NCBI GenBank assembly: GCA_028712175.1
Contig: JAQTQQ010000006.1
Span: 57,226 to 92,421, forward strand
DNA from: Candidatus Omnitrophota bacterium
GTDB taxonomy: Bacteria > Omnitrophota > Gorgyraeia > Gygaellales > Profunditerraquicolaceae
Direction: 5' to 3'
DNA: 35,196 nucleotides
Below the pieces are notes generated by a model. It did no database searches, was not told where the DNA came from, and worked only from the letters and a program-made list of their open reading frames with translations. Made by a program: the position numbers and the translations under genes. Positions within the stretch are counted from its first letter, which is position 1. Every line of letters begins with the position of its first letter. Positions 9,374 to 35,196 of the stretch are shown here, piece after piece.

Positions 9374-10801
9374 TTATTCTCCTTTTTTAGACAACCTATC
9401 TATTATTGCCCTGGCTGCTTTTTTCGCCATACCCATAGCCTCAATGACAGTACCCTCTCCTCCGACAATATCCCCTCCGGCAAAAACTTCTTTAATAGAA
9501 CTTTCCATGGTTTCAGGGTCCACGATGACATCTGAATATTTATCGGTTTTTAGTTCCGGAGTGGCATTGATCAGGATCTGATTAGCTTTAAGGCCCACGG
9601 CAATCACGCATAGATCACAATCAAGCTCAAATTCACTTCCCTCTATAATTATGGGCCTTCTTCTGCCCGAACTATCAGGTTCCCCTAATTTAGATCTAAG
9701 ACAGATCAGTTTTTTAACAAACCCCTCTTGGTCGCCGATGAATTCTTTTGGTTGTACCAAAAACTCAAATTTTATTCCTTCTTCCCGGGCATGTTCGATC
9801 TCAAGGCGGCGGGCGGGCATTTCAATTTCGGTCCTGCGGTAGATAACCATAGTATTAAGCGGCAGCCCCTTTATCTTCTGCATGCGCAAGGCAACTCTTG
9901 CGGCATCCATAGCAGTATTGCCGCCGCCAACAACCAAAACATTCTTACCGATATTAACCGGGGTATGGAATTCTGGAAACTTATACGCGGACATAAGATT
10001 CACCCGGGTCAGGAATTCATTCACTGAATAAATATTACAAAGGTTTTCTCCTTTAATCCCGAGGAATGAGGGCACCCCCGCCCCAAGACCGAGGAATACA
10101 GCGCTATAGCCTTGGCTAAACAATTCTTTAATGGTCTTAGCTTTACCAACAAGAAAATTGGTAATGATATTTACCCCTGATTTCTTAAGGTAATCTATTT
10201 CAAAATCTAAGACGTCCCAAGGCAACCTAAACGGCGGAATACCATATCTTAAAACTCCTCCAGTCTTATGTAAGCTCTCAAAGATATCGACCTTTATGCC
10301 TTTACGAGCTAGCTCCCCGGCACAGCATAATCCCGCCGGGCCGCTTCCTACCACCGCTACTTTAAATTTAGAAAATTTTTCTTCTTTTTCTGTCTTAACA
10401 TCCAATTTATTATTTTTACCGTAGTCTCCGACAAAACGTTCCAAAAAATGTATATTAATTGCCTCTTCAGAAGCAAAAGGCGAACCTTTTTTGGTAAGTA
10501 CGCACGCCTTGCGGCATTGATATTCAGCCGGACAGACCCTTCCGCATATAGAGGGAAAATTATTTTTCTCCCTAATCGTAAAATATGCGGCCTTATAATC
10601 TTTTTGCCTGATATGGTAAATAAACTGCTTTATGTCTATGCCTACGGGGCATCCGCTGGAACAAACCGGGTTTTTACACTGCAGGCATCGTGCGGCTTCC
10701 AACAGGGCTTCTTCTTCAGAATACCCTTTGACTACCTCCTGGAAATTACCTACCCTAAGCTGCGCAGGTACTTCTTTGACTTTTACCGGCTCTTTTTTCA
10801 T
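9374..10801 (-). CDS. nfnB: NfnB/GltD-like NADPH-dependent oxidoreductase (large subunit of NfnAB-type transhydrogenase)
   Basis: EAARCLQCKNPVCSSGCPVGIDI...SICGRVCPAEYQCRKACV; two GxGxxG nucleotide-binding folds; directly downstream of nfnA. Confidence 0.88.
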   Translation of the reverse strand: MKKEPVKVKEVPAQLRVGNFQEVVKGYSEEEALLEAARCLQCKNPVCSSGCPVGIDIKQFIYHIRQKDYKAAYFTIREKNNFPSICGRVCPAEYQCRKACVLTKKGSPFASEEAINIHFLERFVGDYGKNNKLDVKTEKEEKFSKFKVAVVGSGPAGLCCAGELARKGIKVDIFESLHKTGGVLRYGIPPFRLPWDVLDFEIDYLKKSGVNIITNFLVGKAKTIKELFSQGYSAVFLGLGAGVPSFLGIKGENLCNIYSVNEFLTRVNLMSAYKFPEFHTPVNIGKNVLVVGGGNTAMDAARVALRMQKIKGLPLNTMVIYRRTEIEMPARRLEIEHAREEGIKFEFLVQPKEFIGDQEGFVKKLICLRSKLGEPDSSGRRRPIIIEGSEFELDCDLCVIAVGLKANQILINATPELKTDKYSDVIVDPETMESSIKEVFAGGDIVGGEGTVIEAMGMAKKAARAIIDRLSKKGE

Positions 10802-10804
10802 AAT

Positions 10805-11632
10805 TTAAGGCTTTAGAAGGCGACAAATATGTTTTTCTTGTTCGCTGTAGACCTTGTTTCTTTTTTCAAGTTCATCCCAATCTACGCCGTGGCCGTCAAA
10901 ATCAGGGCCGTCAACACAGCTAAACTTTACCTGCCCGGAAACACTCACCCTACAGCAACCGCACATGCCGGTTGCATCAACCATAAGCGCATTAAGCGAT
11001 ACTAAAGTTTTGGTATTATATTCCTTACTCGCCGCCGCCACCCTTTTCATCATGGGGATCGGGCCGACTGAATAAATCAAATCGTATTTTTCTTTACTTA
11101 AAAGCTCGCCTAACATATCGGTAGTAAACCCTTTTTTACCGGCAGAGCCGTCATCGGTCATAATATAAATCTGATCGGATGTTTCTCTAAGTTCGGCTTC
11201 TAAAATAAGCAGGTCCTTATTCCGCGAGCCTAAAATAGTAGTAATCTCGTTACCTGCTTCTTTCAGTGCGCGGGCAACCGGGAGAATTTCGGCTATCCCT
11301 ACTCCGCCTCCTACTAAAATTACTTTTCCAAATTTTTTTACTTCTGTAGGATGCCCTAACGGGCCAACTAAAGAATAGAGGGATTCTCCGGGGCTTAATT
11401 TGCCCAGACTTTTGGTAGTAAAACCTGCTTCTTGAAAAATCAAGCTCACTATTCCTGTCTTCTTATCCGCATTAACCAAAGTTAAAGGAATGCGTTCACC
11501 CTCATGGCTTACCATTAACATTACAAACTGGCCCGGCATTGCCTTAGAAGCAATATCAGCGGATACGATATCTAATTGCGTGATCCTTACGCCTCCTACA
11601 TCATTAATAATTTTCTTATTGACTATTTTCAT
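10805..11632 (-). CDS. nfnA: NfnA-like ferredoxin-NADP reductase subunit (FAD/NAD domain with C-terminal 2Fe-2S)
   Basis: MPGQFVMLMVSHEGERIPLTL...VGGGVGIAEILPVARAL...VDATGMCGCCRVSVSGQVKFSCVDGPDFDGHGVDW. Confidence 0.88.
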   Translation of the reverse strand: MKIVNKKIINDVGGVRITQLDIVSADIASKAMPGQFVMLMVSHEGERIPLTLVNADKKTGIVSLIFQEAGFTTKSLGKLSPGESLYSLVGPLGHPTEVKKFGKVILVGGGVGIAEILPVARALKEAGNEITTILGSRNKDLLILEAELRETSDQIYIMTDDGSAGKKGFTTDMLGELLSKEKYDLIYSVGPIPMMKRVAAASKEYNTKTLVSLNALMVDATGMCGCCRVSVSGQVKFSCVDGPDFDGHGVDWDELEKRNKVYSEQEKHICRLLKP

Positions 11633-15989: not shown

Positions 15990-17741
15990 TTATTTTACGT
16001 AAACTGGACGAGCCTTATAATGCACATGCAGGAGTTTTTCCGACTTCTCCCCCAAAGGCTTGCCTAAAAATTCTTTGTATAATCTTTTTATATAAGGATT
16101 CTGATGGCTGCAGCGGACCTGCTTTTGGTCGTCGTCCTGATACAGCGCCTGTGCCCTTTTAATTCTTAATTCATCCGTAACCATATAAGGCTGTCCGCCT
16201 CCTCCAACACAACCGCCAGGACAAGCCATTACTTCGATAAAATGGTAAGGCATCTCTTTACCGTTATTTTTAGCCTCTCTAACTTTATTTAAAATATACT
16301 CAACATTGCCTAAACCATGGGCAACAGCAATTTTAAGCTTCTTTGCGCCGATTTCGATTTCGGTTTCCTTAACCCCTTTTAGCCCGCGCACATTCTCAAA
16401 TTCTACCTTTTTTAATTCTTTGCCGGTAACAAAATAATGCGCCGTCCTAAGCGCTGCCTCCATGACTCCTCCTGTGGCGCCAAAGATTACGCCCGAGCCG
16501 GCATATTCTCCTAAAATGCTATCGCACTCCTCATCCGGAAGGCTGTCGAAATCTATTCCAGCTTGTTTAATCATGCGCACCAGCTCCCTGGTACATAAAA
16601 CCGTATCAATATCCTGATACCCTGAAGCAAACATCTCATCATTACGGGTAATTTCGTATTTCTTGGAGGTGCATGGCATAATCGAAACCATAAAAATCTT
16701 GGAAGGGTCAATTTTATTTTTTTCTGCATAATAAGTCTTAGATAACACCCCTAATATTTCATGCGGAGATTTACAGGAAGAAAAATGATCAATCATGTCC
16801 GTATAGAATTTTTCCATGAAATCTACCCAAGAAGGGCAGCATGTAGTAATTAAAGGTAACGGCCGCCTGCCATGCAAGAGCCTGTCCTCAAATTCGCTGG
16901 CCTCTTCCATAATCGTAACGTCCGCGGCAAATGAAGTATCAAAAACTGCATTAAACCCTAAACGCCTTAATAATGCATAAAGTTTTTTGGTAAAATTTTT
17001 GCCCGTATAACCAAAGGCTTCGCCTATAGAGACCCTGACAGCAGGAGCAATCTGCACCACGCAGTATTTATCAGGATCCTGTAATGCCTTCCAAGCCTGC
17101 GCAGTATGATCCTGCTCGACGAACGCTCCGGTAGGACAATGCGCTGAACATTGCCCGCAGCGCACGCACGGAGAATCCGCCAATTGGATATCTCCGGCAG
17201 GAGAAATACGTGTTTTCATGCCTCTTTCCAAAAATGATAACGCCCAGACATCCTGCAGCTCTTGACATACATGCACACAGCGCCCGCAAAGAATACATTT
17301 TTTCGGGTCAAGATCAACAGCCTTGGTAGACCTGTCTATCGGCAAATCCCTTAAAAACTGCGGGAATGATTCTTCTTTAATCCCAAAATCCGCTGTTAAT
17401 TTTTGCAGTTCACATTCATTGTTCCTTGCGCACTTAAGGCAATCATTGGGATGATTAGACAGGATAAGCTCGATTACCGTCCTTCTGATCTCAACAATCT
17501 CAGGGTCATGCGTTATAATATCCATACCCTCCTCAAGCGGAGTGCAGCAGGAACGCAACATTTTATGAGAACCTTTATTTTTGACGATACAAATTCCGCA
17601 TGAAGCCGAAGGCGGCAGGTCCGGATGCTTGCAAAGAGTAGGAATTTTTATCTGCACTCTCTTAGCTGCTTCTAAAATAGTGGTGCCTTCTTCAACCCTT
17701 AATAAAATGCCGTTAATTTTTGCTTGAATTATTTTTTTCAT
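15990..17741 (-). CDS. hydA: [FeFe]-hydrogenase catalytic subunit HydA (copy 1)
   Basis: 2Fe-2S N-terminus (CKHPDLPPSASCGIC), HPNDCLKCARNNECELQ, two 4Fe-4S motifs; H-cluster motifs TTCCPSW, MPCTSKKYE, EVMACPGGCVGGGGQP. Confidence 0.96.
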   Translation of the reverse strand: MKKIIQAKINGILLRVEEGTTILEAAKRVQIKIPTLCKHPDLPPSASCGICIVKNKGSHKMLRSCCTPLEEGMDIITHDPEIVEIRRTVIELILSNHPNDCLKCARNNECELQKLTADFGIKEESFPQFLRDLPIDRSTKAVDLDPKKCILCGRCVHVCQELQDVWALSFLERGMKTRISPAGDIQLADSPCVRCGQCSAHCPTGAFVEQDHTAQAWKALQDPDKYCVVQIAPAVRVSIGEAFGYTGKNFTKKLYALLRRLGFNAVFDTSFAADVTIMEEASEFEDRLLHGRRPLPLITTCCPSWVDFMEKFYTDMIDHFSSCKSPHEILGVLSKTYYAEKNKIDPSKIFMVSIMPCTSKKYEITRNDEMFASGYQDIDTVLCTRELVRMIKQAGIDFDSLPDEECDSILGEYAGSGVIFGATGGVMEAALRTAHYFVTGKELKKVEFENVRGLKGVKETEIEIGAKKLKIAVAHGLGNVEYILNKVREAKNNGKEMPYHFIEVMACPGGCVGGGGQPYMVTDELRIKRAQALYQDDDQKQVRCSHQNPYIKRLYKEFLGKPLGEKSEKLLHVHYKARPVYVK

Positions 17742-17743
17742 AT

Positions 17744-19486
17744 TTATTTTTTAGAAATCGCTTTAAATTTACAAACATCAAAACAGCGCCCGCATTTTAT
17801 ACATTTCTCCTGCGCTATTAAATACCCTTCCTCCTTACCTCCGCTAATTGCCTGCACCGGGCAGTTAATTACGCAAAGCCCGCAGCGCTTACATTTATCT
17901 TCTACAATTTCGTAAGTCACAAGGTTACTGCATTTTCCTGCCGGGCACCTCTTATTCAAAATATGCTCATTATATTCATGTTCAAAGTATTTTAAAGTAG
18001 AAAGCACCGGGTTTGAAGCGGTCTGGCCTAGCCCGCATAAAGATGCCTTCTGCATAGCCAGAGACAGCCTTCTTAATTGCCCCAAATCATCCGCTACGCC
18101 TTTTCCTTCAGATATCTTCTTCAGATAACCCAGCATTTGAAAACCTCCGATACGGCAAGGAGCGCATTTTCCGCAGGATTCCTCCACGCAAAAACCGAGG
18201 TAAAACTTGGGAATATCAACCATGCAGTCATCCTCGTCCATAACAATCATTCCGCCTGAACCCATGATCGAACCTAATTTCTGTAAATTTTCGTAATCTA
18301 CCGGGGTGTCTAAAAGCGCTTCGGGAATTACTCCGCCGCTGGGCCCGCCGGTTTGCACTGCTTTTATCGGCTTACCGGATAATGTCCCTCCGCAGATATC
18401 CATGACGATCTCCCTTAAAGTCGCGCCCATGGCAATCTCAACCAACCCTGAATTTTTAACTTTTCCGGTTACCGCAAAAACCTTTGTCCCTTTTGAAGCT
18501 TGCGTGCCGATTTGAGAAAACCATTTACCGCCATTTGAAATAATTACCGGTATATTCGCCAAAGTTTCGACATTATTTATAACCGTAGGCTTTCCCCATA
18601 AACCCTTTACAGAAGGATACGGCGGACGCGGATGCGGAGTGCCTCTTTTGCCCTCGATAGAAGAAATCAAAGCAGTTTCCTCTCCGCAAACAAAAGCTCC
18701 GGCACCCAGCCTTATTTCTATATCTAAATTAAAGGAACTGCCGAGAATATTCTGGCCCAATAAACCGAAATCATAAGCCTGCTTAATTGCCTTATGAATC
18801 CTTTCAACTGCCAAAGGATACTCCGCGCGGATATAAAAATACCCTTTAGGAGCGCCAATGGCAAAAGCAGCTATAATCAAACCCTCAACAACAGAATGGG
18901 GATCACCCTCTAAAATGCTTCTGTCCATATAAGCACCTGGGTCTCCTTCATCGGCATTACATATTACAAATTTCTCAGTTGAAGCTGCCTCCCGGGCAAA
19001 ATTCCACTTCATCCAAGTCGGATACCCTGCACCTCCCCTTCCCCTGATACCGCTTAATTTTATCTCTTCGATTAGTTTTTGCTGGCCTAATTCACCAAGA
19101 ACTTTTTTTAAACCCAAATACCCGCCGCAGGCTATATATTCTTCTATGCTCTCGGGATTAATTTTTCCGCAATTGCGTAAAACAAGCCTGTGCTGTTTTG
19201 CTTTGAGCTTAAAAACTAGGTCTTCAATAATTTTCCCCTGATCTAAAGTCGAATCGACTATGCGCTTAATATCAGAGTCCTGCACATTGCAGTAGATAAT
19301 CTTATCCGGAAGAATCTTTATTACCAACCCCTTGTCATATACACCTATATCAGCAACCCTAACTACCTGAATCTGGGAATGCAGGTTGCTTCCCCGAAGA
19401 TAATCCAAAAGGTGAGTATAAAACTCGCGCGTTTTATCCTCTCTTTTTAAATCAGTGTCTTTTACTAAAATAACCTTGGTATACAT
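17744..19486 (-). CDS. hydB: HydB/NuoF-like subunit (FMN, NADH, 4Fe-4S) with C-terminal 2[4Fe-4S] ferredoxin domain
   Basis: GIRGRGGAGYPTWMKW, CNADEGDPGAYMDRSILEGDPH, ESCGKCAPCRIGG, C-terminal CKRCGLCVINCP...CIKCGRCFDVCKFKAI. Confidence 0.94.
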   Translation of the reverse strand: MYTKVILVKDTDLKREDKTREFYTHLLDYLRGSNLHSQIQVVRVADIGVYDKGLVIKILPDKIIYCNVQDSDIKRIVDSTLDQGKIIEDLVFKLKAKQHRLVLRNCGKINPESIEEYIACGGYLGLKKVLGELGQQKLIEEIKLSGIRGRGGAGYPTWMKWNFAREAASTEKFVICNADEGDPGAYMDRSILEGDPHSVVEGLIIAAFAIGAPKGYFYIRAEYPLAVERIHKAIKQAYDFGLLGQNILGSSFNLDIEIRLGAGAFVCGEETALISSIEGKRGTPHPRPPYPSVKGLWGKPTVINNVETLANIPVIISNGGKWFSQIGTQASKGTKVFAVTGKVKNSGLVEIAMGATLREIVMDICGGTLSGKPIKAVQTGGPSGGVIPEALLDTPVDYENLQKLGSIMGSGGMIVMDEDDCMVDIPKFYLGFCVEESCGKCAPCRIGGFQMLGYLKKISEGKGVADDLGQLRRLSLAMQKASLCGLGQTASNPVLSTLKYFEHEYNEHILNKRCPAGKCSNLVTYEIVEDKCKRCGLCVINCPVQAISGGKEEGYLIAQEKCIKCGRCFDVCKFKAISKK

Positions 19487-19509
19487 AAGTTAGCTGCTTT
19501 CCTTATATT

Positions 19510-19857
19510 TTAGCCTAATACTTCAAAGATACAGTCATTGACCAGCATTTTAGAAATAACGTGCTTCTCCAGTATTTTGGTCGCGACTTCTTTATTTACC
19601 GCGCCATAGACTACCGGAGGCAGGCCGGCAACGCTTACCTCAACCAGAGGCTCGGCATAACAAGCTCCCGCGCAACCGCATTTTTTAATCTCAATCTGCA
19701 AATTTCTCTTTTTGACTTCCTCAATAAAAAAGTTAAAAACATCATCTGCCCCTGCGGCAATACCGCAGCTGCTCATACCCACCTTAATCCAGTCTTTAGA
19801 TGCACCACTGGAAGCCTGATGCATTTTTTCTAAATCATGCGGGGTCAATTTATTCAT
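19510..19857 (-). CDS. Small thioredoxin-like [2Fe-2S] ferredoxin-domain protein of the hydrogenase operon
   Basis: 115 aa: KVGMSSCGIAAGADDVF...KKCGCAGACYAEPLVEVSVAGLPPVVYGAV; related to the N-terminus of the 1048 aa fusion. Confidence 0.85.
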   Translation of the reverse strand: MNKLTPHDLEKMHQASSGASKDWIKVGMSSCGIAAGADDVFNFFIEEVKKRNLQIEIKKCGCAGACYAEPLVEVSVAGLPPVVYGAVNKEVATKILEKHVISKMLVNDCIFEVLG

Positions 19858-19863
19858 AGCTAA

Positions 19864-20337
19864 TTATTCCTCTTTAATATATTTGGACAGGATATCGGCA
19901 ACCTCATTCTTTTTAACCTTGCCGTATACTTTATCATCAATCATAACAACCGGGGCTAAACCGCAGCACCCTAAACACCTTACCACATCCAGATAAAAAA
20001 GCCCGTCCTTGGTTGTCTGGCCTTCTTTAATACCTAAGATATTTTTTATTTCATCCAAAATTACCGCGGCGCCCCTTAAATAACAAGCCGTCCCCATGCA
20101 TAGGGCAATACGATGCTTACCGGGAGGGCTCAACTTAAAGAAATTATAAAAAGTAATCACCTCGTAAATCCTGGCCAGCGGCACATCCAGCATTCTAGAT
20201 AATTCCAATGACAATTCCCGAGGCACATAACCGTGATGGTTCTGAATCTCATGCAGAATCATGATTAAATTGCCTTTTTTGCCCTGCCACTGCTGGACAA
20301 GATTAACTAATTCCGGATTGAGTTTTTTATGTTCCAT
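19864..20337 (-). CDS. hydC: HydC/NuoE-like [2Fe-2S] subunit (copy 1)
   Basis: NHHGYVPRELSLELSRMLDVPLARIYEVITFYNFF...CMGTACYLRGA...CLGCCGLAPVVMIDDKVYGKV. Confidence 0.93.
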   Translation of the reverse strand: MEHKKLNPELVNLVQQWQGKKGNLIMILHEIQNHHGYVPRELSLELSRMLDVPLARIYEVITFYNFFKLSPPGKHRIALCMGTACYLRGAAVILDEIKNILGIKEGQTTKDGLFYLDVVRCLGCCGLAPVVMIDDKVYGKVKKNEVADILSKYIKEE

Positions 20338-20433
20338 GGCTTTAGAAGATTAATTTTTAAGTTTGATTTTTAAGTTCTTACTTCGTCTTCCTAAGGGGGG
20401 ACCAAGGCATGAAACTTCAAAATCAGCGTAAAA

Positions 20434-20461
20434 ATTTTATCATATCTTGTTTAAAAAACAA
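20434..20461 (-). promoter_or_regulatory. Candidate internal promoter for hydC1
   Basis: Minus strand TTGTTT (20461-20456), N16, TAAAAT (20439-20434), in an otherwise unexplained 139-bp spacer. Confidence 0.4.
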
Positions 20462-20476
20462 GAAAAATCTTATTTA

Positions 20477-22252
20477 CTAAATCCCTGCGCGTTCTGTATA
20501 ATGCGTATGCAATAAATGATGCGATTTCTCTCCCAGAGGCTTGATTAAAAATTCTTTATACAACGCCTGCACCGCAGGATTTTCATGCGACTTTCTAAGG
20601 GTTTTATTTTTATCCTCCCGATAAATCGCCTCCATCCTTTTTAACCTAACCTGATCATTTGTCGGTATTGGCTGGCCTGCACCTCCGAGGCATCCTCCAG
20701 GACAAGTCATAATCTCAATAAACGCATAAGGCGAACAGCCGGCCTTAACTTCTTCTAACAATATACGCGCATTGCTTAAGCTATTAGCCACGGCAACCTT
20801 AACTTTTAACCCCTCGATATCTACTTCGGCGACCTTGATTCCGTTAAGCCCTCTTAAATCCATAAAGTCCAATTTCTCTATCTGCCTGCCTGTGAGCACT
20901 TCATAAGCCGTCCTTAATGCCGCCTCCATTACCCCTCCGCTTGCTCCGAATATAACAGCCGCTCCGGTAGAAATACCAAGAGGCTCATCAAAATCTTCTC
21001 CGGAAAGGTTTAAAAAATCAATCCCCGCCTCTTTAATCATAGAGGCTGCTTCCCGCGTAGTTAAAACATAATCCACATCGTAAAATGATTCATTGTCTTT
21101 AAGGCCTAATTTATTTTTCCAGTAATCAAATGCGCTTTTCATCTCAGGGCGCTTTGCCTCAAATTTTTTAGCAGTACAGGGCATAACCGAAACAACTACA
21201 ATGTCCCTTGGGTCAAGATTATATTTCTCGGCATAATAGGTCTTAGCAATTGCCCCAAACATCTGCTGCGGGCTTTTACAACTTGAAACATGCCCTAATA
21301 TACCCGGGAAAAAATGCTCGGCAAATTTTATCCATCCCGGCGAACAAGAGGTAACCATAGGAAGAAGTCCTTTATTTTTAATCCGCTCGATTAACTCATA
21401 GCCTTCTTCCATAATTGTCAGATCCGCGGAAAACTGAGTATCAAAAACTTTAGCAAAACCCAGCCTGCGCAGACCTTCGGCTAATTTAGCCGTAACCAAG
21501 GTGCCTGCCGGAAGGCCGAATTCTTCTCCGATTGCCGCCCTTACTGCAGGAGCGACTTCAACAACAACAAATTTCTTAGGATCGGATAGCGCCTGCCATA
21601 CATTTTCTGTAGCGATATTTTCGGTAATTGCGCCCGTGGGGCAGACCAAAAGGCATTGGCCGCAGTTAACGCATACGCTATTGGCCAGGCCGGAATCAAA
21701 AAAAGTAGTCACTTTACTTGCCTTGCCGCGGCCGGTAAAATCAATCGCTTTAACGCTTTGGATCACCGAACAAACAGCAACGCAGCGCCCGCATAAAATA
21801 CATTTATTGGGGTCTCGGATTAAAGACGCAGAGGTAGAGTCTAAAGGCAATTCTATTTTTGTTAGCTTAGGAAACCGCACCTCTTTTATCCCCATATCGG
21901 AAGCAAGTTTCCTTAATTCGCAAGTTTGGCTCCTATCGCAGCAAAGACAATCCTTAGGATGCCCCGCCAAGAGCAATTCTAAATTCAACTTTCTTGCGTT
22001 TCTTACCCGTGGAGTATTGGTAAAAATCTCCATGCCTTGCCTGACGTAAGTAACGCATGAACGCGCAAGATTTTTGGCGCCTTTTATTTCGACTAAACAA
22101 ATCGAACAGGCGCCTTCTTTGTTAATATCCTTTAAGTAACAAAGCGTGGGGATATTAATACCGTTTTCCCCGCAAGCCTCCAATACAGTCAAAGATTGAC
22201 CGCACTTACAAGCCTTGCCGTTAATTTTTAAAGATATGGGAGGTTTTTCCAT
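20477..22252 (-). CDS. hydA: [FeFe]-hydrogenase catalytic subunit HydA (copy 2)
   Basis: 2Fe-2S N-terminus, HPKDCLCCDRSQTCELR, two 4Fe-4S motifs; H-cluster motifs TSCSPGW, MPCTAKKFE, EIMTCPGGCLGGAGQP. Confidence 0.95.
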   Translation of the reverse strand: MEKPPISLKINGKACKCGQSLTVLEACGENGINIPTLCYLKDINKEGACSICLVEIKGAKNLARSCVTYVRQGMEIFTNTPRVRNARKLNLELLLAGHPKDCLCCDRSQTCELRKLASDMGIKEVRFPKLTKIELPLDSTSASLIRDPNKCILCGRCVAVCSVIQSVKAIDFTGRGKASKVTTFFDSGLANSVCVNCGQCLLVCPTGAITENIATENVWQALSDPKKFVVVEVAPAVRAAIGEEFGLPAGTLVTAKLAEGLRRLGFAKVFDTQFSADLTIMEEGYELIERIKNKGLLPMVTSCSPGWIKFAEHFFPGILGHVSSCKSPQQMFGAIAKTYYAEKYNLDPRDIVVVSVMPCTAKKFEAKRPEMKSAFDYWKNKLGLKDNESFYDVDYVLTTREAASMIKEAGIDFLNLSGEDFDEPLGISTGAAVIFGASGGVMEAALRTAYEVLTGRQIEKLDFMDLRGLNGIKVAEVDIEGLKVKVAVANSLSNARILLEEVKAGCSPYAFIEIMTCPGGCLGGAGQPIPTNDQVRLKRMEAIYREDKNKTLRKSHENPAVQALYKEFLIKPLGEKSHHLLHTHYTERAGI

Positions 22253-25200
22253 CTATTTACCTTCTTTAACATCGCATCTTAGGCATCTGCCAGCTTCAGC
22301 GTGGGCCTGCTTTAAAGAAAGCCCTAAAGAAACTTCTTTAAAGTTCTTCTTTCGTTTATTAATATCTAATTTAAGGCCTCCCTGTTTTCGTACCGCTTTT
22401 GATTCCAGAGGTGCCTTAAATTCATAGGAAAATTTACGAAACAGCCTGTCGAACCTGTCAATTGTACTTAAAGCCAAATCAATCGACTTAGCAGCCTTTT
22501 TACCGCAAGCCATGGCTTCCACAGCAGTAGCCGGCCCCATGGTTAAATCTCCTCCGGCATAAACTTTATCCAAGCTTGTTTTTAAATCAGAACTTTCGAC
22601 TTTAACTGTACCATCCTGATTTACTAAAATCCCGCACTCTTTGATAAAATTCGAGTCTACTCTTTCTCCAATCGCCAGAAGCAGCGTATCGCAAGGAATT
22701 TCAGAAAACTCATCCGTAGCAACCGGTTTTCTCCGTCCGGAAATATCAAATTCTCCCAAGGTCATTTTAGTTACGCTTAAACCTTTTACCTTTCCTTTAG
22801 CATCCCCCAAAATAACTTTAGGCCCGGCTAAAAATATGAACTTTACGCCTTCTGCCTCAGCGCCTTTAATTTCATCTTTATTGGCAGGCATATCTTCTTT
22901 TTGACGGCGATAGACAATAGTAACGTCACTGTCTAACCTTAAAGCTGTGCGGGCAGCATCAACTGCTACATTTCCTGCCCCTATTATTACTACCTTCTTG
23001 CCAATAGACGGAATTTTGCCGACTGCCACATCTTCCAAAAAAGCGGTCCCGGATAAAACTCCTTTTAGATCTTCTCCCGGGATACCCAAGCTCATATCTT
23101 TATAAGCGCCGGTTGCTAAAAATACAGCGTCGGCAGCTTTGATTTTATTTTGTAAATCTTTTGTTCCGAATTTTTTACCGTATAAAATCTTTACACCCAT
23201 CTTTTCTACAAAAGAAATTTCTTTCTTTAGGACTGATTTGGGCAGCCTATATTCAGGAATACCGTAACGTAAGACTCCTCCTGCTTCTAGGTTAGCTTCA
23301 TAAATAGTAACTTCATGGCCCAGCCGGGCCAGATAATATGCAGCTGTCAAACCGCTCGGCCCTGCGCCGATTACCGCAACTTTCTTTCCTGTCTTTGGCA
23401 GTTTTTCCTTAACTAACCGCTGAATAATTTTGGTTTCTTTTTTGCCTTTATATATATTGTCGGCTACATACCGGTGAATTTCACCTTGAGCCACCGGATA
23501 ATCGATATCCTCCCGGCGGCAACGCATTTTACAGTGAAAATGACAGATTCTGCCGCTTGAAGACGGAAAAGGATTGTCCCGGATAATACATTCAAAAGCA
23601 TCCTCGAGACTGCCTTCTTTAAATAACTGCAAGAATCCGGGGATGTTCATATGCAAAGGACAGCTGTTTTCGCAGGGAGAAACAAAAAGATCCGAACACA
23701 CCCCGCCGTCGCAACGCTGCTCTTTGATATGCTCTTCATATTCATGCTTAAAATATTTGAGCGTAGTCAAAACGGGATTTGGCCCGGTTTGCCCTAAACC
23801 GCAAAGAGCCGTGTCTTTAATCACCGCCCCCAGATTTTCCAGGTCATCTAAATCTTTAAGGATAGCCTTACCCCTTGTAATATTATTCAGGATGTTTAAA
23901 TTTTGATTCAATCCTTCACGGCAAGGCGTACATTTACCGCAAGACTCGCTGGTTGTAAACTCCGTAAAATAACGCGCAACATCAACCATACAGTTATCAT
24001 CGTCCATAACAACCATCCCCCCGCTGCCCATGATCGCCCCCAATGAAGCCAAAGTTTCATAATCAATAGGGGTATCGAACAATGAAGACGGGATACATCC
24101 TCCGGAAGGCCCTCCGCTTTGAACTGCCTTGATCTTTTTATCTGTACCGGTTCCAGAGCCGACATTATAAATAAGCGTTTGTAAAGTTGCCCCTAAAGGC
24201 AGCTCCACCAACCCGGTATTCTTTATCTTGCCCACGAGAGAAAAAACTTTTGTGCCGGAGCTATTTTTGGTCCCCGTTTTTATAAACCAACCGGCTCCTT
24301 TTGCCATAATAACCGGTATATTGCTCCAAGTTTCGACATTATTAATATTAGTAGGTTTATCTAAATAACCTTTTTGTGCAGGAAACGGCGGACGGGTATG
24401 CGGCCTTCCTGATTTACCCTGAAGTGAAGAAATTAAAGCCGTCTCCTCTCCGCATACAAATGCGCCGGCGCCTTCTACCAGATCCAGATCAAAAGAAAAA
24501 CCACTGTCAAATATATTTTCACCCAAGAAACCGTAATCTCTGGCTTCAGTGATTGCCTTTCGTATCCTTTCTACTGCCAAAGGATATTCCGCGCGCACAT
24601 AAATAATCCCTCTTGATGCGCCCATCGCATAGGCCCCGATAACCATTCCCTCTAAGAGCATATGCGGGTCGCTTTCGCTCTCATTACGGTTCATATAGGC
24701 TCCGGGGTCTCCTTCGTCCGCGTTACAGATAACGTATTTTTCATTTGAAATTTCCTTGCGCATTAATTCCCATTTTACTCCAGTAGGAAAACCTGCACCT
24801 CCCCTGCCTCTTAGCTTTGAATCTTTAACTTCAGCAATAACAGCTTCAGGTTTTGCCTCTTTTAAAACCCGCTGCAGGACACTATATCCTCCTACGGCAA
24901 TATACTCCTCTATATCTTCCGGATTAATTAACCCGCAGTCCCTTAGCACAATTTTCTTCTGCCATTTAAAAAACGGAATTTCGTACCAATTCGGTATCTT
25001 CTGAAAACCCTGCCCATAAGTAATTTGTCCGGTTATATGGTCCCAGGATTCAATTTTACACAACGCCCTTTTAGGATTGATATCGCCTCCTGCCAACTCC
25101 CTGACAATAGAATCTACATCTCTGGGTAAAACAGAATTTAAAATAACTAAAGGTTTTCCGGGCAATGAAATATTTACCAGCGGCTCCTCGGCACAAAATC

Positions 25201-25399
25201 CGAAACAACCGACCTTAGTAAGCAAAGCAGGTATTTTCTTTTTTGATAGCGAAGCTTTAAAAACATTAAAAACTTCCTCTGCGCCGTTACCGATGCCGCA
25301 GGTGCCTGTTCCAACCGCTATACGCGGTTCTTTAGGCAACAGCTTTGCCAAGCCAATGTCTTTAATCAACTTCAGCTCTTCAGCAGTTTTTATTTTCAT
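22253..25399 (-). CDS. Fusion protein: [2Fe-2S] Trx-like + HydB/NuoF + NfnB/GltD-type FAD-NAD(P)H oxidoreductase
   Basis: 1048 aa: TCGIGNGAEEVF...VGCFGFCAEEP; RGRGGAGFPTGVKW, CNADEGDPGAYMNR, ESCGKCTPCREG; then CENSCPLHMNIPGF..., VAVIGAGPSGLTAAYYLARLGHEVTIYEA, VVIIGAGNVAVDAARTALRL, YAGGDLTMGPATAVEAMACGKKAA, C-terminal RCLRCD. ATGA overlap with hydC2 stop. Confidence 0.94.
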   Translation of the reverse strand: MKIKTAEELKLIKDIGLAKLLPKEPRIAVGTGTCGIGNGAEEVFNVFKASLSKKKIPALLTKVGCFGFCAEEPLVNISLPGKPLVILNSVLPRDVDSIVRELAGGDINPKRALCKIESWDHITGQITYGQGFQKIPNWYEIPFFKWQKKIVLRDCGLINPEDIEEYIAVGGYSVLQRVLKEAKPEAVIAEVKDSKLRGRGGAGFPTGVKWELMRKEISNEKYVICNADEGDPGAYMNRNESESDPHMLLEGMVIGAYAMGASRGIIYVRAEYPLAVERIRKAITEARDYGFLGENIFDSGFSFDLDLVEGAGAFVCGEETALISSLQGKSGRPHTRPPFPAQKGYLDKPTNINNVETWSNIPVIMAKGAGWFIKTGTKNSSGTKVFSLVGKIKNTGLVELPLGATLQTLIYNVGSGTGTDKKIKAVQSGGPSGGCIPSSLFDTPIDYETLASLGAIMGSGGMVVMDDDNCMVDVARYFTEFTTSESCGKCTPCREGLNQNLNILNNITRGKAILKDLDDLENLGAVIKDTALCGLGQTGPNPVLTTLKYFKHEYEEHIKEQRCDGGVCSDLFVSPCENSCPLHMNIPGFLQLFKEGSLEDAFECIIRDNPFPSSSGRICHFHCKMRCRREDIDYPVAQGEIHRYVADNIYKGKKETKIIQRLVKEKLPKTGKKVAVIGAGPSGLTAAYYLARLGHEVTIYEANLEAGGVLRYGIPEYRLPKSVLKKEISFVEKMGVKILYGKKFGTKDLQNKIKAADAVFLATGAYKDMSLGIPGEDLKGVLSGTAFLEDVAVGKIPSIGKKVVIIGAGNVAVDAARTALRLDSDVTIVYRRQKEDMPANKDEIKGAEAEGVKFIFLAGPKVILGDAKGKVKGLSVTKMTLGEFDISGRRKPVATDEFSEIPCDTLLLAIGERVDSNFIKECGILVNQDGTVKVESSDLKTSLDKVYAGGDLTMGPATAVEAMACGKKAAKSIDLALSTIDRFDRLFRKFSYEFKAPLESKAVRKQGGLKLDINKRKKNFKEVSLGLSLKQAHAEAGRCLRCDVKEGK

Positions 25400-25944
25400 T
25401 TCTTGTTTCCCCGCAAGGCGATACTTTTAATAATTTTCTGCAATTTCTGCGTAGTCATACGGCTATAAATATTGCCGTCTATCTCAACTACCGGCGCCAG
25501 GGCACACTGCCCAAAACAGGCAACGGTTTTTATCGTAAATTTATTATCCTTTGTAGTCAGGTATAACTTGCCATCCTGGCTAAAATCATCCTCTTTAAAA
25601 CCGAATAAATTAATCAAGAAATCGAGGAGATTTTTTGAACCCCGCGTATGGCAGGCCGTACCCCGGCAGACAATAATCGAATGTTTGCCTTGGGGCTTGA
25701 GGTTAAAAAAAGCATAAAAAGTAATAATATTATATATTCGGGAGAGGGGAATATTGGCCCTCTTAGCAATATACTCTAAGGAATCTTGAGTAAGATATTT
25801 ATGCTGGTTAGACTTCTGCGCATCTTCTAATATACCCAGGATACTTCCAGGTTTGCCAATATACCGAGAGATAATCTGATCTAATTCCCCCCTGTCCAAA
25901 CCAACCTGCGGAAGATTTCTTTTATTTTCTGCGGCTTTAGCCAT
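25396..25944 (-). CDS. hydC: HydC/NuoE-like [2Fe-2S] subunit (copy 2)
   Basis: IPLSRIYNIITFYAFFNLKPQGKHSIIVCRGTACHTRGS...CFGQCALAPVVEIDGNIY. Confidence 0.93.
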   Translation of the reverse strand: MAKAAENKRNLPQVGLDRGELDQIISRYIGKPGSILGILEDAQKSNQHKYLTQDSLEYIAKRANIPLSRIYNIITFYAFFNLKPQGKHSIIVCRGTACHTRGSKNLLDFLINLFGFKEDDFSQDGKLYLTTKDNKFTIKTVACFGQCALAPVVEIDGNIYSRMTTQKLQKIIKSIALRGNKK

Positions 25945-25959
25945 TTTCGTCCTATATTG

Positions 25960-26586
25960 TTACCTGGTCTTCTCCGTTACGTTGACGAAATAAATCAAGT
26001 TCTCTAACTCAATTTCCAGATTAACATTATTAATAATGCATCCCTCGGTACCCTTCAGCCCGAGAGGAGCAAAATTAAGTATCCCCTTAATCCCCGAAGC
26101 GCAAATTATATCTGTTGCCTGCTGGGCTGCGATATCCGGAACAGCCAAGATAGCTATACGGATACTATGAGTTTTAATAAAAGCCTTGGCTTCATCTAGA
26201 GGCAGGACAGGAACAAAACTAGAGCGGTTGATTTTGGCCGGGTCTATATCAAAACCGGCGACAATTTTAATCCCCTCTTTTTCAAATCCGCGGTAACGCA
26301 TAAGAGCGCTACCGATATGTCCGGCTCCTACAACAATAACTTTCTGTAGTTGATCCTTACCAAGAATACTGTTTAGCTTTTCAAGCAGCGAATCAATCTG
26401 GTATCCCCCTTTTTTGTTCCCGGAAATACCAAAAATCGAGAAATCTTTCCTTACTTGAGAAGCAGTACCGCTTACGGCATCCGCAAGATTATCTGAGAAA
26501 ACTTTCACAAAACCCAGTGCCTGCAACCTATAAAGAGCGTTTTTATATCGGGAAAGCCGAATGATGCAGTTCTTATTTGTAATCAT
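25960..26586 (-). CDS. rex: Redox-sensing transcriptional repressor Rex
   Basis: RLSRYKNALYRLQALGFVKVFSDNLADAVSGTASQVRKDFSIFGISGNKKGGYQID...KVIVVGAGHIGSALMRY; winged helix plus Rossmann fold. Confidence 0.95.
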   Translation of the reverse strand: MITNKNCIIRLSRYKNALYRLQALGFVKVFSDNLADAVSGTASQVRKDFSIFGISGNKKGGYQIDSLLEKLNSILGKDQLQKVIVVGAGHIGSALMRYRGFEKEGIKIVAGFDIDPAKINRSSFVPVLPLDEAKAFIKTHSIRIAILAVPDIAAQQATDIICASGIKGILNFAPLGLKGTEGCIINNVNLEIELENLIYFVNVTEKTR

Positions 26587-30698: not shown

Positions 30699-32144
30699 TT
30701 AAATTAGCGGCAGACTGCTGCTGCCCATTAAATACTGGTCTATAAAATAGGCGGCAGACCTTCCTTCCGAAATAGCCCAAACCACCAATGACTGCCCGCG
30801 CCTCATATCACCGGCAGAAAAAACTTTTTTAACTGAAGTCATATAGGATCCATTTGTCTTGACATTGCCGCGCTCGTCAAACTCAACATTAATCTCCTTA
30901 AGCAAACCTGAATGTTCGGGTTGTAAAAAACCGATAGCAATAATTGCCAGATCTGCATCAATTTCAAATTCGCTACCCGGAATCTCCTTCATTACAGAGC
31001 AAGCCTGTCCTTGAATTCTGTTAAATTCCACCCTTACACAAGAAATTCCTTTTAAACGGCCGCCCTTCTGAATAAAACTTTTTGTCAGCACTGTCCAGAG
31101 CCGCTCTGCGCCTTCTTCATGGCTGGAAGTTGTTTTTAACAACAAGGGATATGCCGGCCAAGGATATGCTTCTGTTCTGCAGCCAGCCGGCTGCGGTAAT
31201 ACCTCTATCTGGGTTATACAAGAAGCCCCCTGCCTGTTAGCCGTACCGACACAGTCGGCTCCCGTATCTCCTCCACCGATCACAACGACCTTCTTCCCCC
31301 TGGCATCAATCAGCTTGTCTATAGGATTCAGCTCTTTTGACAGGCGCTTGTTTGCCTGAATCAAATATTCCATGGCAAAATAAATGCCTGTGGCATCCCT
31401 TCCCTCTATTTTGATATCCCTGGGCAAAGCGGCGCCGCCAGCAAGGCAGACCGCGTCAAAATCTTTTAAAAGTTTTTTAACCGGATAATCAACTCCGACA
31501 TTAATATTTGTCTTAAATTCAACTCCTTCTTTCTTAAATATATTAATACGCCTGTCGATAATTTCTTTCTCAAGTTTAAAATCGGGGATCCCGTAGCGCA
31601 AAATTCCTCCGGGCATAAGCGAGCGTTCAAACACAATTACGCGATGCCCTGCCTGATTAAGCTGGCTAGCACAGGACAATCCCGCAGGGCCGGAACCTAC
31701 AATAGCTACTTTCTTTTTCGTTCTTTTACTTACATTTTTAGGCTTAATCAAACCATTCCCAAAACCAAACTCGGCTATTGCCAGTTCATTTTCACGGACA
31801 CAAACAGCATCATCATTTAGGCCTAAAACACAGGCATGCTCACAAGGCGCTGGGCAAAGCCTTCCGGTAATCTCAGGAAGGCCATTCGTGCTCTCCAGCA
31901 ATTCGACTGCCTCTTTCCAATTACCCCGGAACATATAGTCATTCCACTCCGGAATATAGTTTCCTATCGGGCATGCTGAATGGCAAAACGGAGTTGAGCA
32001 ATCCATACATCTACTAGCCTGTTCTTGCGACTGTTCAGGCGGCAAAATCTTACCTACCTCCTTGAAATCACGGATGCGTTCGCAGACCGGCCTGTATTGA
32101 TTACCTTTTCTGGCTATTTTTAAGAAACCCTTAATATCACCCAT
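30699..32144 (-). CDS. gltD: Glutamate synthase small (beta) subunit
   Basis: GFLKIARKGNQYRPVCERIRDFKEVGKILPPEQSQEQASRCMDCSTPFCHSACPIGNYIPEWND...; directly downstream of gltB. Confidence 0.96.
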   Translation of the reverse strand: MGDIKGFLKIARKGNQYRPVCERIRDFKEVGKILPPEQSQEQASRCMDCSTPFCHSACPIGNYIPEWNDYMFRGNWKEAVELLESTNGLPEITGRLCPAPCEHACVLGLNDDAVCVRENELAIAEFGFGNGLIKPKNVSKRTKKKVAIVGSGPAGLSCASQLNQAGHRVIVFERSLMPGGILRYGIPDFKLEKEIIDRRINIFKKEGVEFKTNINVGVDYPVKKLLKDFDAVCLAGGAALPRDIKIEGRDATGIYFAMEYLIQANKRLSKELNPIDKLIDARGKKVVVIGGGDTGADCVGTANRQGASCITQIEVLPQPAGCRTEAYPWPAYPLLLKTTSSHEEGAERLWTVLTKSFIQKGGRLKGISCVRVEFNRIQGQACSVMKEIPGSEFEIDADLAIIAIGFLQPEHSGLLKEINVEFDERGNVKTNGSYMTSVKKVFSAGDMRRGQSLVVWAISEGRSAAYFIDQYLMGSSSLPLI

Positions 32145-35100
32145 CTATTTTTGCCCCTTCTAAAATACGTTTGTATTCAAGCGGCATAACCCGGATGAAC
32201 CTCTTAAACTCTTCATGCATATTATCAATGATTTGTTTTGCTTTTACGCTTTTAGTGTATTTAAAATGATTACGCAACAGATGATAAATTGTATCCCGGT
32301 CTTCTTCTCTGGCAGCTTCAAGCTCAACCATATCCTTATTACATTTGTTGCTAAATGTTTTATCTACATCATAAATATAAGCTATGCCTCCTGACATTCC
32401 CGCTGCGAAATTTACTCCTGTTTTACCCAACACCAATACTCTTCCTCCGGTCATATATTCGCACCCATGATCACCCACGCCTTCTACAACCGCATATAAC
32501 CCGGAGTTTCTTACGCAAAACCTCTCTCCGGCAACGCCACAAATATAGGCTTCCCCGGAAATAGCTCCATAAAAAGTTGTATTGCCCATAATAATATTTT
32601 TATCCGGAGCATATGTCGAGCTTTTATGCGGATAAATTATAATCTTGCCTCCGGAAATACCCTTACCCACATAATCATTAGCCATACCTTCCAGCTCAAA
32701 AGTTACTCCTTTAACCAAAAAGGCCCCGAAGGATTGACCGGCGGTACCGGTAAATTTCACGCGTATCGTATCCTCTAACAATATTCCATCCCCACATTTT
32801 CTGCAGATCTGGCCACTAAGCATTGCCCCTACAGCCCTATCAGTATTATTAATTTCAGATGAAACTTCGACCGGTTTGTTTTCTAAAATTGCCTTCTCGG
32901 ACAATTTTAGAAGTTTCACATCCAGAACATTTTCTAACTGAGCATTCTTTCTAACGGTGCCTATTTTAACAGCACCTTTGCAGCCTTCCGGGGCATAAAG
33001 AATATTGGAATAATTTACCCCCCTGGATTTAGCAGGGAGGATATCGCCGTTAAATTCCAACAGGTCCACCCTGCCGACTAATTCATCAACCGTTCTTATT
33101 CCAAGTTCGGCCATAATCAAACGCAGCTCCTCTGTAACAAAATTAAAATAATTCACTATGAATTCCGCTTTCCCCCTAAACCTCTTCTGCAGAATATCAT
33201 CCTGTGTAGCTACCCCGACAGAACAGTTATTGAGATGACAGTGCCTTAACATGACACAGCCGATTACTACGAGCACCGCGCTGCAAAACCCAAATTCCTC
33301 GGCTCCCAGTAAAGCGGCTATTGCAACGTCGCGGCCGGTACGCATTTGCCCGTCAGTTTGCAAGCATACTCTCGAACGCAGGTTATTAAGAACCAGCGCC
33401 TGATGTGTCTCGGAAAGCCCCAATTCCCAGGGAAGCCCAGCATGCCTTATGGAGCTTCGCGGGGAAGCGCCGGTGCCTCCGTCTCCGCCTGAAATAAGGA
33501 CCATGTCTGCATGCCCCTTGGCAACACCTACGGCAATTGTGCCCACCCCAATCTCAGAAACCAGCTTAACGCTAATACGTGCGTGCGGGTTAACATTTTT
33601 TAAATCAAAAATAAGTTGTGCCAGGTCTTCTATTGAATAAATATCATGATGCGGCGGCGGAGATATTAAGGTAACTCCGGCGGTTGTATACCTGGTGCGC
33701 GCAATTATCTGGCTTACCTTGTGCCCGGGCAGCTGCCCTCCTTCTCCGGGCTTTGCCCCTTGGGCAATTTTTATCTGGATCTCGTCAGCATTAACAAGAT
33801 AATTTGCAGTAACTCCAAACCTTCCTGATGCAACCTGTTTTATGGCGCTCCTTCTTGAATCCCCGTTGGGTAAAGTAACAAACCTATTGGGATCCTCTCC
33901 GCCCTCTCCGGTATTGGATTTTCCGCCTATTCGATTCATGGCAATAGCAATAGTTTCATGGGCAATACCGCTTATCGAGCCAAAACTCATCGCTCCGGTA
34001 ACAAAACGCCGCATAATCTCTTTTGCGGGTTCAACCTCCTCTAGAGCAATAGGATTTACTTTCTTAAGCCTAAAAAGGCTCCTTAAGGTAGTCGGATTTA
34101 CCGACTGATCATTGATCAAGCGCGCAAATTTTTTGTATTTTTCATAATCATTATCACGCGCCGCGTCCTGAAGCGCAGCGATACTTTCCGGGCGCCAAAG
34201 ATGGAATTCACCGTCTTTTTTCCATTGGTAAACCCCCCCGCTGGGCAGGATATTACCGATACCGCTTTGATTATAGGCCAGCCGATGCCTCTCTATGGTT
34301 TCCTCAATTATCCCCTCAAGGCCAACCCCGCCTATTCTTGATGCGGTACCGGTAAAATAACGGCCGATAAAATCAGATTCCAAACCCAAGGCCTCAAATA
34401 TCTGGGCGCCGCGATAGCTCCTTAAAGTAGATATCCCCATTTTTGACAATATTTTTAATACACCGTCTGTTAAGGCTTTGCGGTAATTCTTTATCGCTGC
34501 TTTAAAATCAAGGGTAATTTGTTTTTCGCGGACTAAATACTCTACCGCCTCATAAGACAAATAAGGGTTCAGGCAATCAGCTCCGTAACCAAAGAGCAAA
34601 ACAAAATGATGCACTTCCCTGGGTTCGGCGCTTTCTACAATCAAAGCTACCTGCGAACGGATACTCTTTCTTACAAGATAATGATGAACCGCACTAACCG
34701 CAAGCAACGCAGGCAGTGCAATATTATTTTCATCAACTCCGCGATCGCTAAGTATAATAAAAGCATATCCTTTTTCAATGGCGTATTCCGCCTCAGAACA
34801 AATTCTTTCTATCGTGCGCAGGAAACCATCGTTAGCGTTTTTTGAATCAAAAAAAGTATAGATGGTTTGTGCCCTAAAAGAATTTATACTAATATCGCGT
34901 ATTCTGGCAAGCTCCTCATTAGTCAGGATAGGATTCTTAATTTCAAGTTTATGACTGTGCTCTGGAGACTCCTTTAAAATATTTCTTTCAGGCCCGATAA
35001 AACTCTCAAGGCTCATAACGTTTTTTTCCCTTATGGAATCTATCGCGGGATTAGTAACTTGCGCAAAAAGCTGTTTGAAATAGCTATAGAGCAACTGCGG

Positions 35101-35196
35101 TTTTTTTGATAAAAAAGCATGCGGGCAATCATTGCCCATAGACCCTACAGGCTCCTTGCCTTCTTCTGCCATAGGCGCCAATATCATTTTAAAATC
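32137..35196 (-). CDS. gltB: Glutamate synthase large (alpha) subunit, partial (5' end outside the window)
   Basis: MGNDCPHAFLSKKPQLLYSYFKQLFAQVTNPAIDSIREKNVMSLESFIGPERN... is an internal GltB region; frame stays open to the window edge. FMN-domain motif SNTGEGGEDPNRF and C-terminal GXGXG-type domain present. Confidence 0.96.
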   Translation of the reverse strand, partial: DFKMILAPMAEEGKEPVGSMGNDCPHAFLSKKPQLLYSYFKQLFAQVTNPAIDSIREKNVMSLESFIGPERNILKESPEHSHKLEIKNPILTNEELARIRDISINSFRAQTIYTFFDSKNANDGFLRTIERICSEAEYAIEKGYAFIILSDRGVDENNIALPALLAVSAVHHYLVRKSIRSQVALIVESAEPREVHHFVLLFGYGADCLNPYLSYEAVEYLVREKQITLDFKAAIKNYRKALTDGVLKILSKMGISTLRSYRGAQIFEALGLESDFIGRYFTGTASRIGGVGLEGIIEETIERHRLAYNQSGIGNILPSGGVYQWKKDGEFHLWRPESIAALQDAARDNDYEKYKKFARLINDQSVNPTTLRSLFRLKKVNPIALEEVEPAKEIMRRFVTGAMSFGSISGIAHETIAIAMNRIGGKSNTGEGGEDPNRFVTLPNGDSRRSAIKQVASGRFGVTANYLVNADEIQIKIAQGAKPGEGGQLPGHKVSQIIARTRYTTAGVTLISPPPHHDIYSIEDLAQLIFDLKNVNPHARISVKLVSEIGVGTIAVGVAKGHADMVLISGGDGGTGASPRSSIRHAGLPWELGLSETHQALVLNNLRSRVCLQTDGQMRTGRDVAIAALLGAEEFGFCSAVLVVIGCVMLRHCHLNNCSVGVATQDDILQKRFRGKAEFIVNYFNFVTEELRLIMAELGIRTVDELVGRVDLLEFNGDILPAKSRGVNYSNILYAPEGCKGAVKIGTVRKNAQLENVLDVKLLKLSEKAILENKPVEVSSEINNTDRAVGAMLSGQICRKCGDGILLEDTIRVKFTGTAGQSFGAFLVKGVTFELEGMANDYVGKGISGGKIIIYPHKSSTYAPDKNIIMGNTTFYGAISGEAYICGVAGERFCVRNSGLYAVVEGVGDHGCEYMTGGRVLVLGKTGVNFAAGMSGGIAYIYDVDKTFSNKCNKDMVELEAAREEDRDTIYHLLRNHFKYTKSVKAKQIIDNMHEEFKRFIRVMPLEYKRILEGAKIDG

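Follow-up and report, generated by a model that had tools for sequence, protein, structure and literature searches.

The window analysed here, a stretch of 35,196 nucleotides from contig JAQTQQ010000006.1 of a Candidatus Omnitrophota bacterium, encodes on its minus strand a protein in which a HydB/NuoF module is fused to a GltD/NfnB-like flavoprotein module (Table 1). The gene is a single uninterrupted open reading frame (ORF) that begins with ATG and contains no internal stops; the tetranucleotide ATGA is shared by the end of hydC2 and the start of the fusion gene, whose TAG stop directly abuts the ATG of hydA2. Pfam domains were found, all above the cut-off, in the order Complex1_51K (residues 191-362), NADH_4Fe-4S (473-557), Fer4_20/DPD_II (561-651), and Pyr_redox_2 (672-964), while an SLBB match was weak and under the cut-off. 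The Fer4 dicluster domain (clusters B3/B4, IPR017896) is absent from the protein, and the DPD_II and GltD modules stand in its place; the junction reads QRC(563)DGGVC(568)SDL followed by PC(576)ENSCP. In a model built with AlphaFold2 (AF2; predicted local distance difference test, pLDDT, 88.7; predicted template modelling score 0.82; low confidence around the NAD/flavin mononucleotide (FMN) loop 231-235), the first half matched HydB/StnB chains and the second half StnC/NfnL chains in Foldseek searches. One intact HydB/NuoF-DPD_II/GltD protein between hydC2 and hydA2 is confirmed, as the initial annotation, made from the sequence alone, had described it, with both modules complete, the switch at QRCDGGVCSDL and the ATGA overlap.

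Table 1. Positions of the fusion gene, its parts and adjoining genes in the window.
Feature	Position	Strand	Evidence or residues
HydB(BfuB)-GltD fusion, 1048 aa	22253..25399	(-)	ORF, Pfam, homologues, AF2 model
N-terminal thioredoxin (Trx)-like domain, ~residues 25-105	25085..25327	(-)	Three of four cluster cysteines: C34, C65, C69
FMN/NAD(H) domain, Complex1_51K, residues 191-362	24314..24829	(-)	E229 invariant
NuoF-type [4Fe-4S] domain	23729..23983	(-)	B1 ligands C487, C490, C493, C533
C-terminal B2 ligands H557, C563, C568 (C470 upstream)	23696..23731	(-)	Putative low-potential branch point directly before junction
DPD_II two-cluster domain, residues 569-651	23447..23695	(-)	C576, C580, C619, C623, C627, H642
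Flavin adenine dinucleotide (FAD)/NADP(H) two-Rossmann domain, residues 672-978	22466..23386	(-)	GAGNVA at 807, R831/R832, R718
C-terminal RCLRCD (C1039, C1042)	22271..22288	(-)	Likely completes DPD_II distal cluster
hydC2, NuoE/HydC-like [2Fe-2S] subunit (cluster C1)	25396..25944	(-)	PF01257; ATGA overlap with fusion
hydA2, [FeFe]-hydrogenase catalytic subunit	20477..22252	(-)	NCBIfam FeFe_hydrog_A6
rex, NAD(H)-sensing repressor	25960..26586	(-)	Upstream of hydC2; adjacent in nearest relatives too

Homologues were sought in genome contigs with two peptide patterns, the resulting counts being samples and not censuses. At least 79 loci were found, most of them with a full-length fusion. Five genomes of the same genus encode the full-length protein with identities of 77-85%; in a sixth genome, from another genus of the same family, the gene is interrupted by a frame change (L013:1501-3354), which may reflect either a sequencing error or a real inactivation. 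The matches listed included Omnitrophota, Margulisiibacteriota, Elusimicrobia, Bacteroidetes (among them the complete genome CP006772), Lentisphaerae, Akkermansiaceae, Spirochaetota, Ignavibacteriae, FCPU426, Acidobacteria, Proteobacteria, Planctomycetota, Kiritimatiellae and Opitutales, with Pelotomaculum, Atribacteria and others as more distant matches.

Cluster ligands were mapped in 65 fusions, that of the window included, with the published sites of A. mobile BfuB and S. ovata StnC as references. The four ligands of cluster B1, the four of B2 (C470, H557, C563, and C568, that is, the complete B2 set of the Bfu family with its histidine) and the five DPD_II cysteines are invariant in all of them, as are C1039 and C1042 of the C-terminal tail wherever the sequence extends that far. 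We assigned the DPD_II cysteines to the distal and proximal clusters as in the DPD and Nfn structures, which presumably holds for the fusion as well. The putative FAD- and NADPH-binding residues have not been lost from the GltD part: every fusion retains R718, the GxGxxA motif, and R831, and 64 of the 65 also retain R832. Most fusions have threonine at position 508. In the FMN half, E229 corresponds to E183 of E. coli NuoF, a glutamate that we take to disfavour NADPH, although a check of the literature gave no confirmation. Position 642, which aligns with Lys170 of StnC and with a glutamate of NfnL, is occupied by histidine in 53 fusions (H-type, including that of the window) and by lysine in 12 (K-type, to which the isolate Pelotomaculum terephthalicicum belongs); His642 may serve as a cluster ligand. 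The N-terminal domain, initially annotated as a [2Fe-2S] Trx-like domain, retains only three of the four cluster cysteines, with glycine at position 39 in place of the fourth; because of this, and because StnB likewise deviates at these cysteines, the presence of a [2Fe-2S] cluster (B5) is uncertain.

In HydABC and Stn enzymes, the FMN splits electrons to NAD+ and, via the cluster of the C subunit and B2, to the ferredoxin arm. We compared the fusions with 32 non-fusion HydB-like proteins from the same loci and the window. Twenty-three of these carry a C-terminal 2[4Fe-4S] ferredoxin arm, and the B2 set is present in every one; it is absent from all nine armless proteins (Bacteroidales forms of 399-402 aa, L079/L083, and L086/L087). 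None of the 65 fusions has the ferredoxin arm of HydB/StnB. The last cysteine of B2 is separated from the first cysteine of the arm by 8 residues in all fusions, compared with 12-13 residues in ferredoxin-arm HydBs. As B2 is retained only in HydBs with an arm, and the fusions resemble armed HydBs in this respect, the simplest reading is that B2 would feed whichever arm is attached.

In the Bacteroidales loci L045, L047, L050, L051, and L059, a second HydC-HydB-HydA set, with the armless 399-402-aa HydB that lacks B2, stands beside the fusion operon. The HydB-like genes at L086:7974-9683 and L087:7980-9686, whose products end just before the B2 His/Cys motif and have neither arm nor B2, are located downstream of a prismane/CO-dehydrogenase-like gene.

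To our knowledge, HydABC-type bifurcating enzymes are all held to need ferredoxin. It is very probable that HydC2, the fusion, and HydA2 assemble into a single complex that has a site for H2, one for NAD(H) in the FMN half, and one for NADP(H) in the FAD half. For this complex we propose, as a reading with about an even chance of being correct, a HydABC-type mechanism whose low-potential partner is NADP(H) and not ferredoxin, because the low-potential branch is complete up to B2 and the next acceptor in the chain is the DPD_II/FAD/NADP(H) arm. HydA2 would exchange electrons with H2, and the FMN with NAD(H); the low-potential branch would run from the HydC2 cluster through B2 and the two DPD_II clusters to FAD and NADP(H), and not to ferredoxin. 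The coupling would be tight and reversible, with two H2 linked to NAD+ and NADP+ in a 1:1 ratio. The proposal is supported by the GltD half being closest to StnC, whose FAD relays electrons of NADPH via the same two clusters without bifurcation.

At assumed cellular potentials taken from Schut et al., the computed H2 ceiling supported by NADH plus NADPH is about 145 Pa, compared with about 3 Pa when NADH is the only donor and about 15 kPa when NADH acts together with ferredoxin; conversely, formation of NADH and NADPH from two H2 becomes favourable above about 145 Pa. In a fermenter, the likely direction would be from NADH and NADPH to H2, and at high H2 both nucleotides would be made. A link between H2 and NADPH would be useful to the host in either direction, since its genome (95% complete) contains genes of the pyruvate:ferredoxin oxidoreductase family but yielded no match to the C-terminal domain of glucose-6-phosphate dehydrogenase and none to NiFe-hydrogenase.

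Several points weigh against this mechanism. The use of NADP(H) is deduced from motifs, and so is the assignment of NAD(H) to the other half. Part of the [2Fe-2S] ligand set of B5 is missing; StnB also deviates at B5, and Stn bifurcates. The nine armless HydBs represent only about three lineages, so that the association between B2 and an arm is a strong pattern and not a statistical proof. The span between NAD(H) and NADP(H) is only about 100 mV at the assumed potentials (-280 and -380 mV), which makes a gated mechanism less needed than with ferredoxin. Finally, no experimentally characterised enzyme of the HydB-GltD architecture was found in the open-access literature.

The initial annotation had suggested a hub for H2, NADH, NADPH, and ferredoxin. 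The sites for the first three are those named above; ferredoxin as a fourth substrate lacks support, because the 2[4Fe-4S] domain of HydB/StnB that has been proposed as its dock is exactly what the NADPH arm has replaced. Ferredoxin might instead dock at the distal cluster of DPD_II, as on NfnB. In NfnAB, DPD_II forms the ferredoxin side, and ferredoxin is in use in the cell, since the window encodes both an nfnAB pair and HydB1 with its ferredoxin arm; however, in Stn the same two clusters relay electrons onward and not to ferredoxin, the entry to DPD_II is tethered 8 residues from B2, and the fusions uniformly lack the HydB/StnB arm. A four-way hub based on such docking appears unlikely. A similarly small chance is given to the absence of any bifurcation, that is, to a simple bidirectional hydrogenase whose two nicotinamide outlets work independently and which would in effect be an NADH/NADPH transhydrogenase linked to H2. 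At the assumed potentials, both reactions stay close to equilibrium across the usual range of H2 pressures, and hydrogenases without B3/B4 do not bifurcate, but the fusions fully keep B2, whose histidine is absent from non-bifurcating homologues according to the BfuB literature and whose ligands the armless HydBs have lost.

A second bifurcating centre at the FAD of the GltD arm, in addition to the FMN-FeS site, was raised by Zheng & Huang (2024) in their paragraph on this architecture. The homology of the GltD half to NfnB, which has a bifurcating FAD, and the conserved arginine near the flavin N5 (R718) would agree with it; nevertheless, the sequence is closer to StnC, whose FAD does not bifurcate despite the same arginine, the fusion has histidine where NfnB has the glutamate of its proximal cluster, and an NfnA-like partner is absent from the operon unit, which makes two centres highly improbable. 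Lastly, the joining of two genes by assembly or annotation, or a frameshift or misassembly at the junction, conceivable in an uncultured draft of 24 contigs, is ruled out for practical purposes by the same full-length protein in many independent assemblies of unrelated genomes, including the complete CP006772, and by the pLDDT of 88.7 across the entire chain.

The HydB-GltD architecture itself is already described. In one paragraph, Zheng & Huang (2024; PMC11406978) reported it as "sub-type I BfuB" from Hydrogenedentota and relatives in several phyla, and suggested the FAD as a second bifurcating centre. By that domain description, the protein of the window is of the same kind, with the B3/B4 domain replaced by DPD_II and a C-terminal FAD/NAD(P) domain in an [FeFe]-hydrogenase cluster. 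To the account in that paragraph our analysis adds the NiFe- and formate-dehydrogenase-linked forms, the B2/arm rule with the 8-residue spacing, the assignment of NADP(H), and a Stn-like GltD half with histidine at position 642, the H-type fusions forming a cross-phylum clade whose partners are [FeFe]- and [NiFe]-hydrogenases and probably formate dehydrogenase.

Among characterised systems, HydABC/BfuABC enzymes (T. maritima, A. woodii, T. kivui, and A. mobile HydABCSL) share with the window the A, B, and C subunits, the FMN half, B1, B2, and the HydC cluster, but the fusion has an NADP(H) arm instead of the B3/B4 ferredoxin arm, and its B5 cysteines are incomplete. The FMN and NADH_4Fe-4S domains of BfuB are both present (PF01512, 153.7 bits; PF10589, 106.4 bits), and the BfuA and [2Fe-2S] BfuC subunits are encoded alongside as hydA2 and hydC2. 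Since BfuB must have a ferredoxin-type domain according to the family definition (Schut et al., 2022), and the B3/B4 domain is missing, the fusion is outside the formal Bfu family; the working principle is probably the same.

Stn/Nfn-Bfu enzymes (StnABC of Sporomusa ovata; NfnABC of T. sibiricus and C. saccharolyticus) have a similar HydB-like and HydC-like core and provide the closest solved relative of the GltD half. The likeness to Stn noted initially thus holds for the parts (NuoE/NuoF-like and GltD-like) and fails for the layout: Stn has its GltD module on the A-side subunit StnC, where it supplies mid-potential electrons, and StnB keeps the ferredoxin arm, with ferredoxin as the low-potential acceptor, whereas here the module is part of the B subunit and hydA2 bears the H-cluster domain. 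Furthermore, the cluster-ligating Lys170 of StnC is replaced by His642, lysine being found in the K-type fusions. With NfnAB the fusion shares a GltD-like FAD/NADP(H) module with two [4Fe-4S] clusters; NfnB, in contrast, bifurcates, has glutamate at the site of His642, and is paired with NfnA, which is lacking from the hydC2-fusion-hydA2 unit. An [FeFe]-hydrogenase with a GltD-type partner is also known from the putative glutamate-synthase-linked group A2 of HydDB, but that group is defined by a GltD/GltA domain and the absence of NuoF downstream of hydA, whereas in the window one chain comprises both the NuoF and the GltD half and its gene lies upstream of hydA2. The product of hydA2 belongs to the NADH-dependent group A6 (FeFe_hydrog_A6 at 855 bits, the cut-off being 765) and contains TSCSPGW, MPCTAKK, and MTCPGGCLGGAGQ. 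A function of the GltD half as a glutamate-synthase subunit was ruled out, the fusion having no glutaminase or synthase domain and a separate gltB-like/gltD pair being encoded at 30699-35187.

The unit HydC-fusion-hydrogenase is kept across phyla. Catalytic partners were assigned by script in 52 H-type loci besides the window. A hydrogenase was assigned in 46 of them: 35 loci have an [FeFe] catalytic subunit, and 11 have a short HoxU-like A subunit with NiFe small and large subunits, the large one being nearest to VhuA. The NiFe-linked form occurs in Propionivibrio and Rhodospirillales. Four of the six remaining loci are at or near a contig edge. Among these six, L069 has a match to the NiFe small subunit, and a formate-dehydrogenase-like subunit is encoded at the Elusimicrobia locus L039, beyond two intervening ORFs that are unrelated. 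HydC is encoded directly upstream of the fusion in 48 of the 52 loci by the same script; of the other four, two begin at contig starts, and two have HydC one gene further up or overlapping. Because [FeFe], NiFe, and formate-dehydrogenase-like partners are all encoded at its loci, the HydC-HydB-GltD core would serve several catalytic subunits, for H2 and probably also for formate.

In the tree of HydB cores, the H-type fusions form one clade (SH-aLRT 99, 54 rows), which includes one ferredoxin-arm HydB from Rhodospirillales (L063), and the K-type cores are placed elsewhere. The tree of GltD halves again groups the H-type as one clade (100/100); in it, the halves of the window's type and of the Pelotomaculum type are sisters, and all fusions together with StnC are split from NfnB (100/98). 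Searches with Phmmer and Foldseek likewise place the GltD half closest to StnC/NfnA of the Stn type. A single origin of all fusions was rejected on the HydB-core tree (approximately unbiased test, p 6e-84), in a set that includes some long branches and was chosen once the tree was known. Given the sister GltD halves of the window's and Pelotomaculum types, exchange of arms between HydB cores seems as likely as repeated fusion. In the Rhodospirillales locus (L063:6031-11168), the ferredoxin-arm HydB is in tandem with a fusion and is its sister in the HydB-core tree, which suggests that the ferredoxin arm was regained in a recent exchange. The H-type clade extends over about 13 phyla.

Taken more broadly, the comparison suggests a HydBC core with exchangeable output arms, which would give rise to ferredoxin-free bifurcating [FeFe]- and NiFe-hydrogenases and formate dehydrogenases linking H2 or formate with both NADH and NADPH, with a His-ligated [4Fe-4S] cluster beside the FAD. 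We advance this generalisation tentatively, as somewhat short of an even chance. The same arm swap across many phyla would point to a possibly ferredoxin-free coupling of H2 to NADH and NADPH. A natural exchange of the output arm alone, with B2 kept, would mean that the bifurcating core is separable from the ferredoxin dock and would make the disputed roles of B2 and the arm directly testable. If correct, the proposal would explain how many uncultured fermenters, as well as Proteobacteria and Acidobacteria with the NiFe form, can keep H2 and NADPH in balance, and current classifiers would probably file such enzymes as merely NAD/ferredoxin-linked.

The minus-strand gene order in the window is rex, hydC2, the fusion, hydA2, hydC1, a small [2Fe-2S] Trx-like gene, hydB1, hydA1, hydG, hydE, hydF, and nfnAB, the last pair being separate (9374-11632). 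Two hydrogenase sets thus stand in tandem at 15990-25944, one with the ferredoxin-arm HydB1 and the other with the fusion. The order from rex to hydA1 is retained in several relatives of the same phylum, with hydG next in most of those. A scan for Rex operators gave 3 matches compared with 2.3 expected and hence no support for such sites. An ORF of 652 aa (6006-7964) with no Pfam match is located between an HD-domain gene and the glutamate dehydrogenase gene. The small gene between hydC1 and hydB1 (19510-19857) encodes a 115-aa [2Fe-2S] Trx-like protein, which gave only weak NCBIfam matches and is similar to the N-terminal Trx domain of the fusion.

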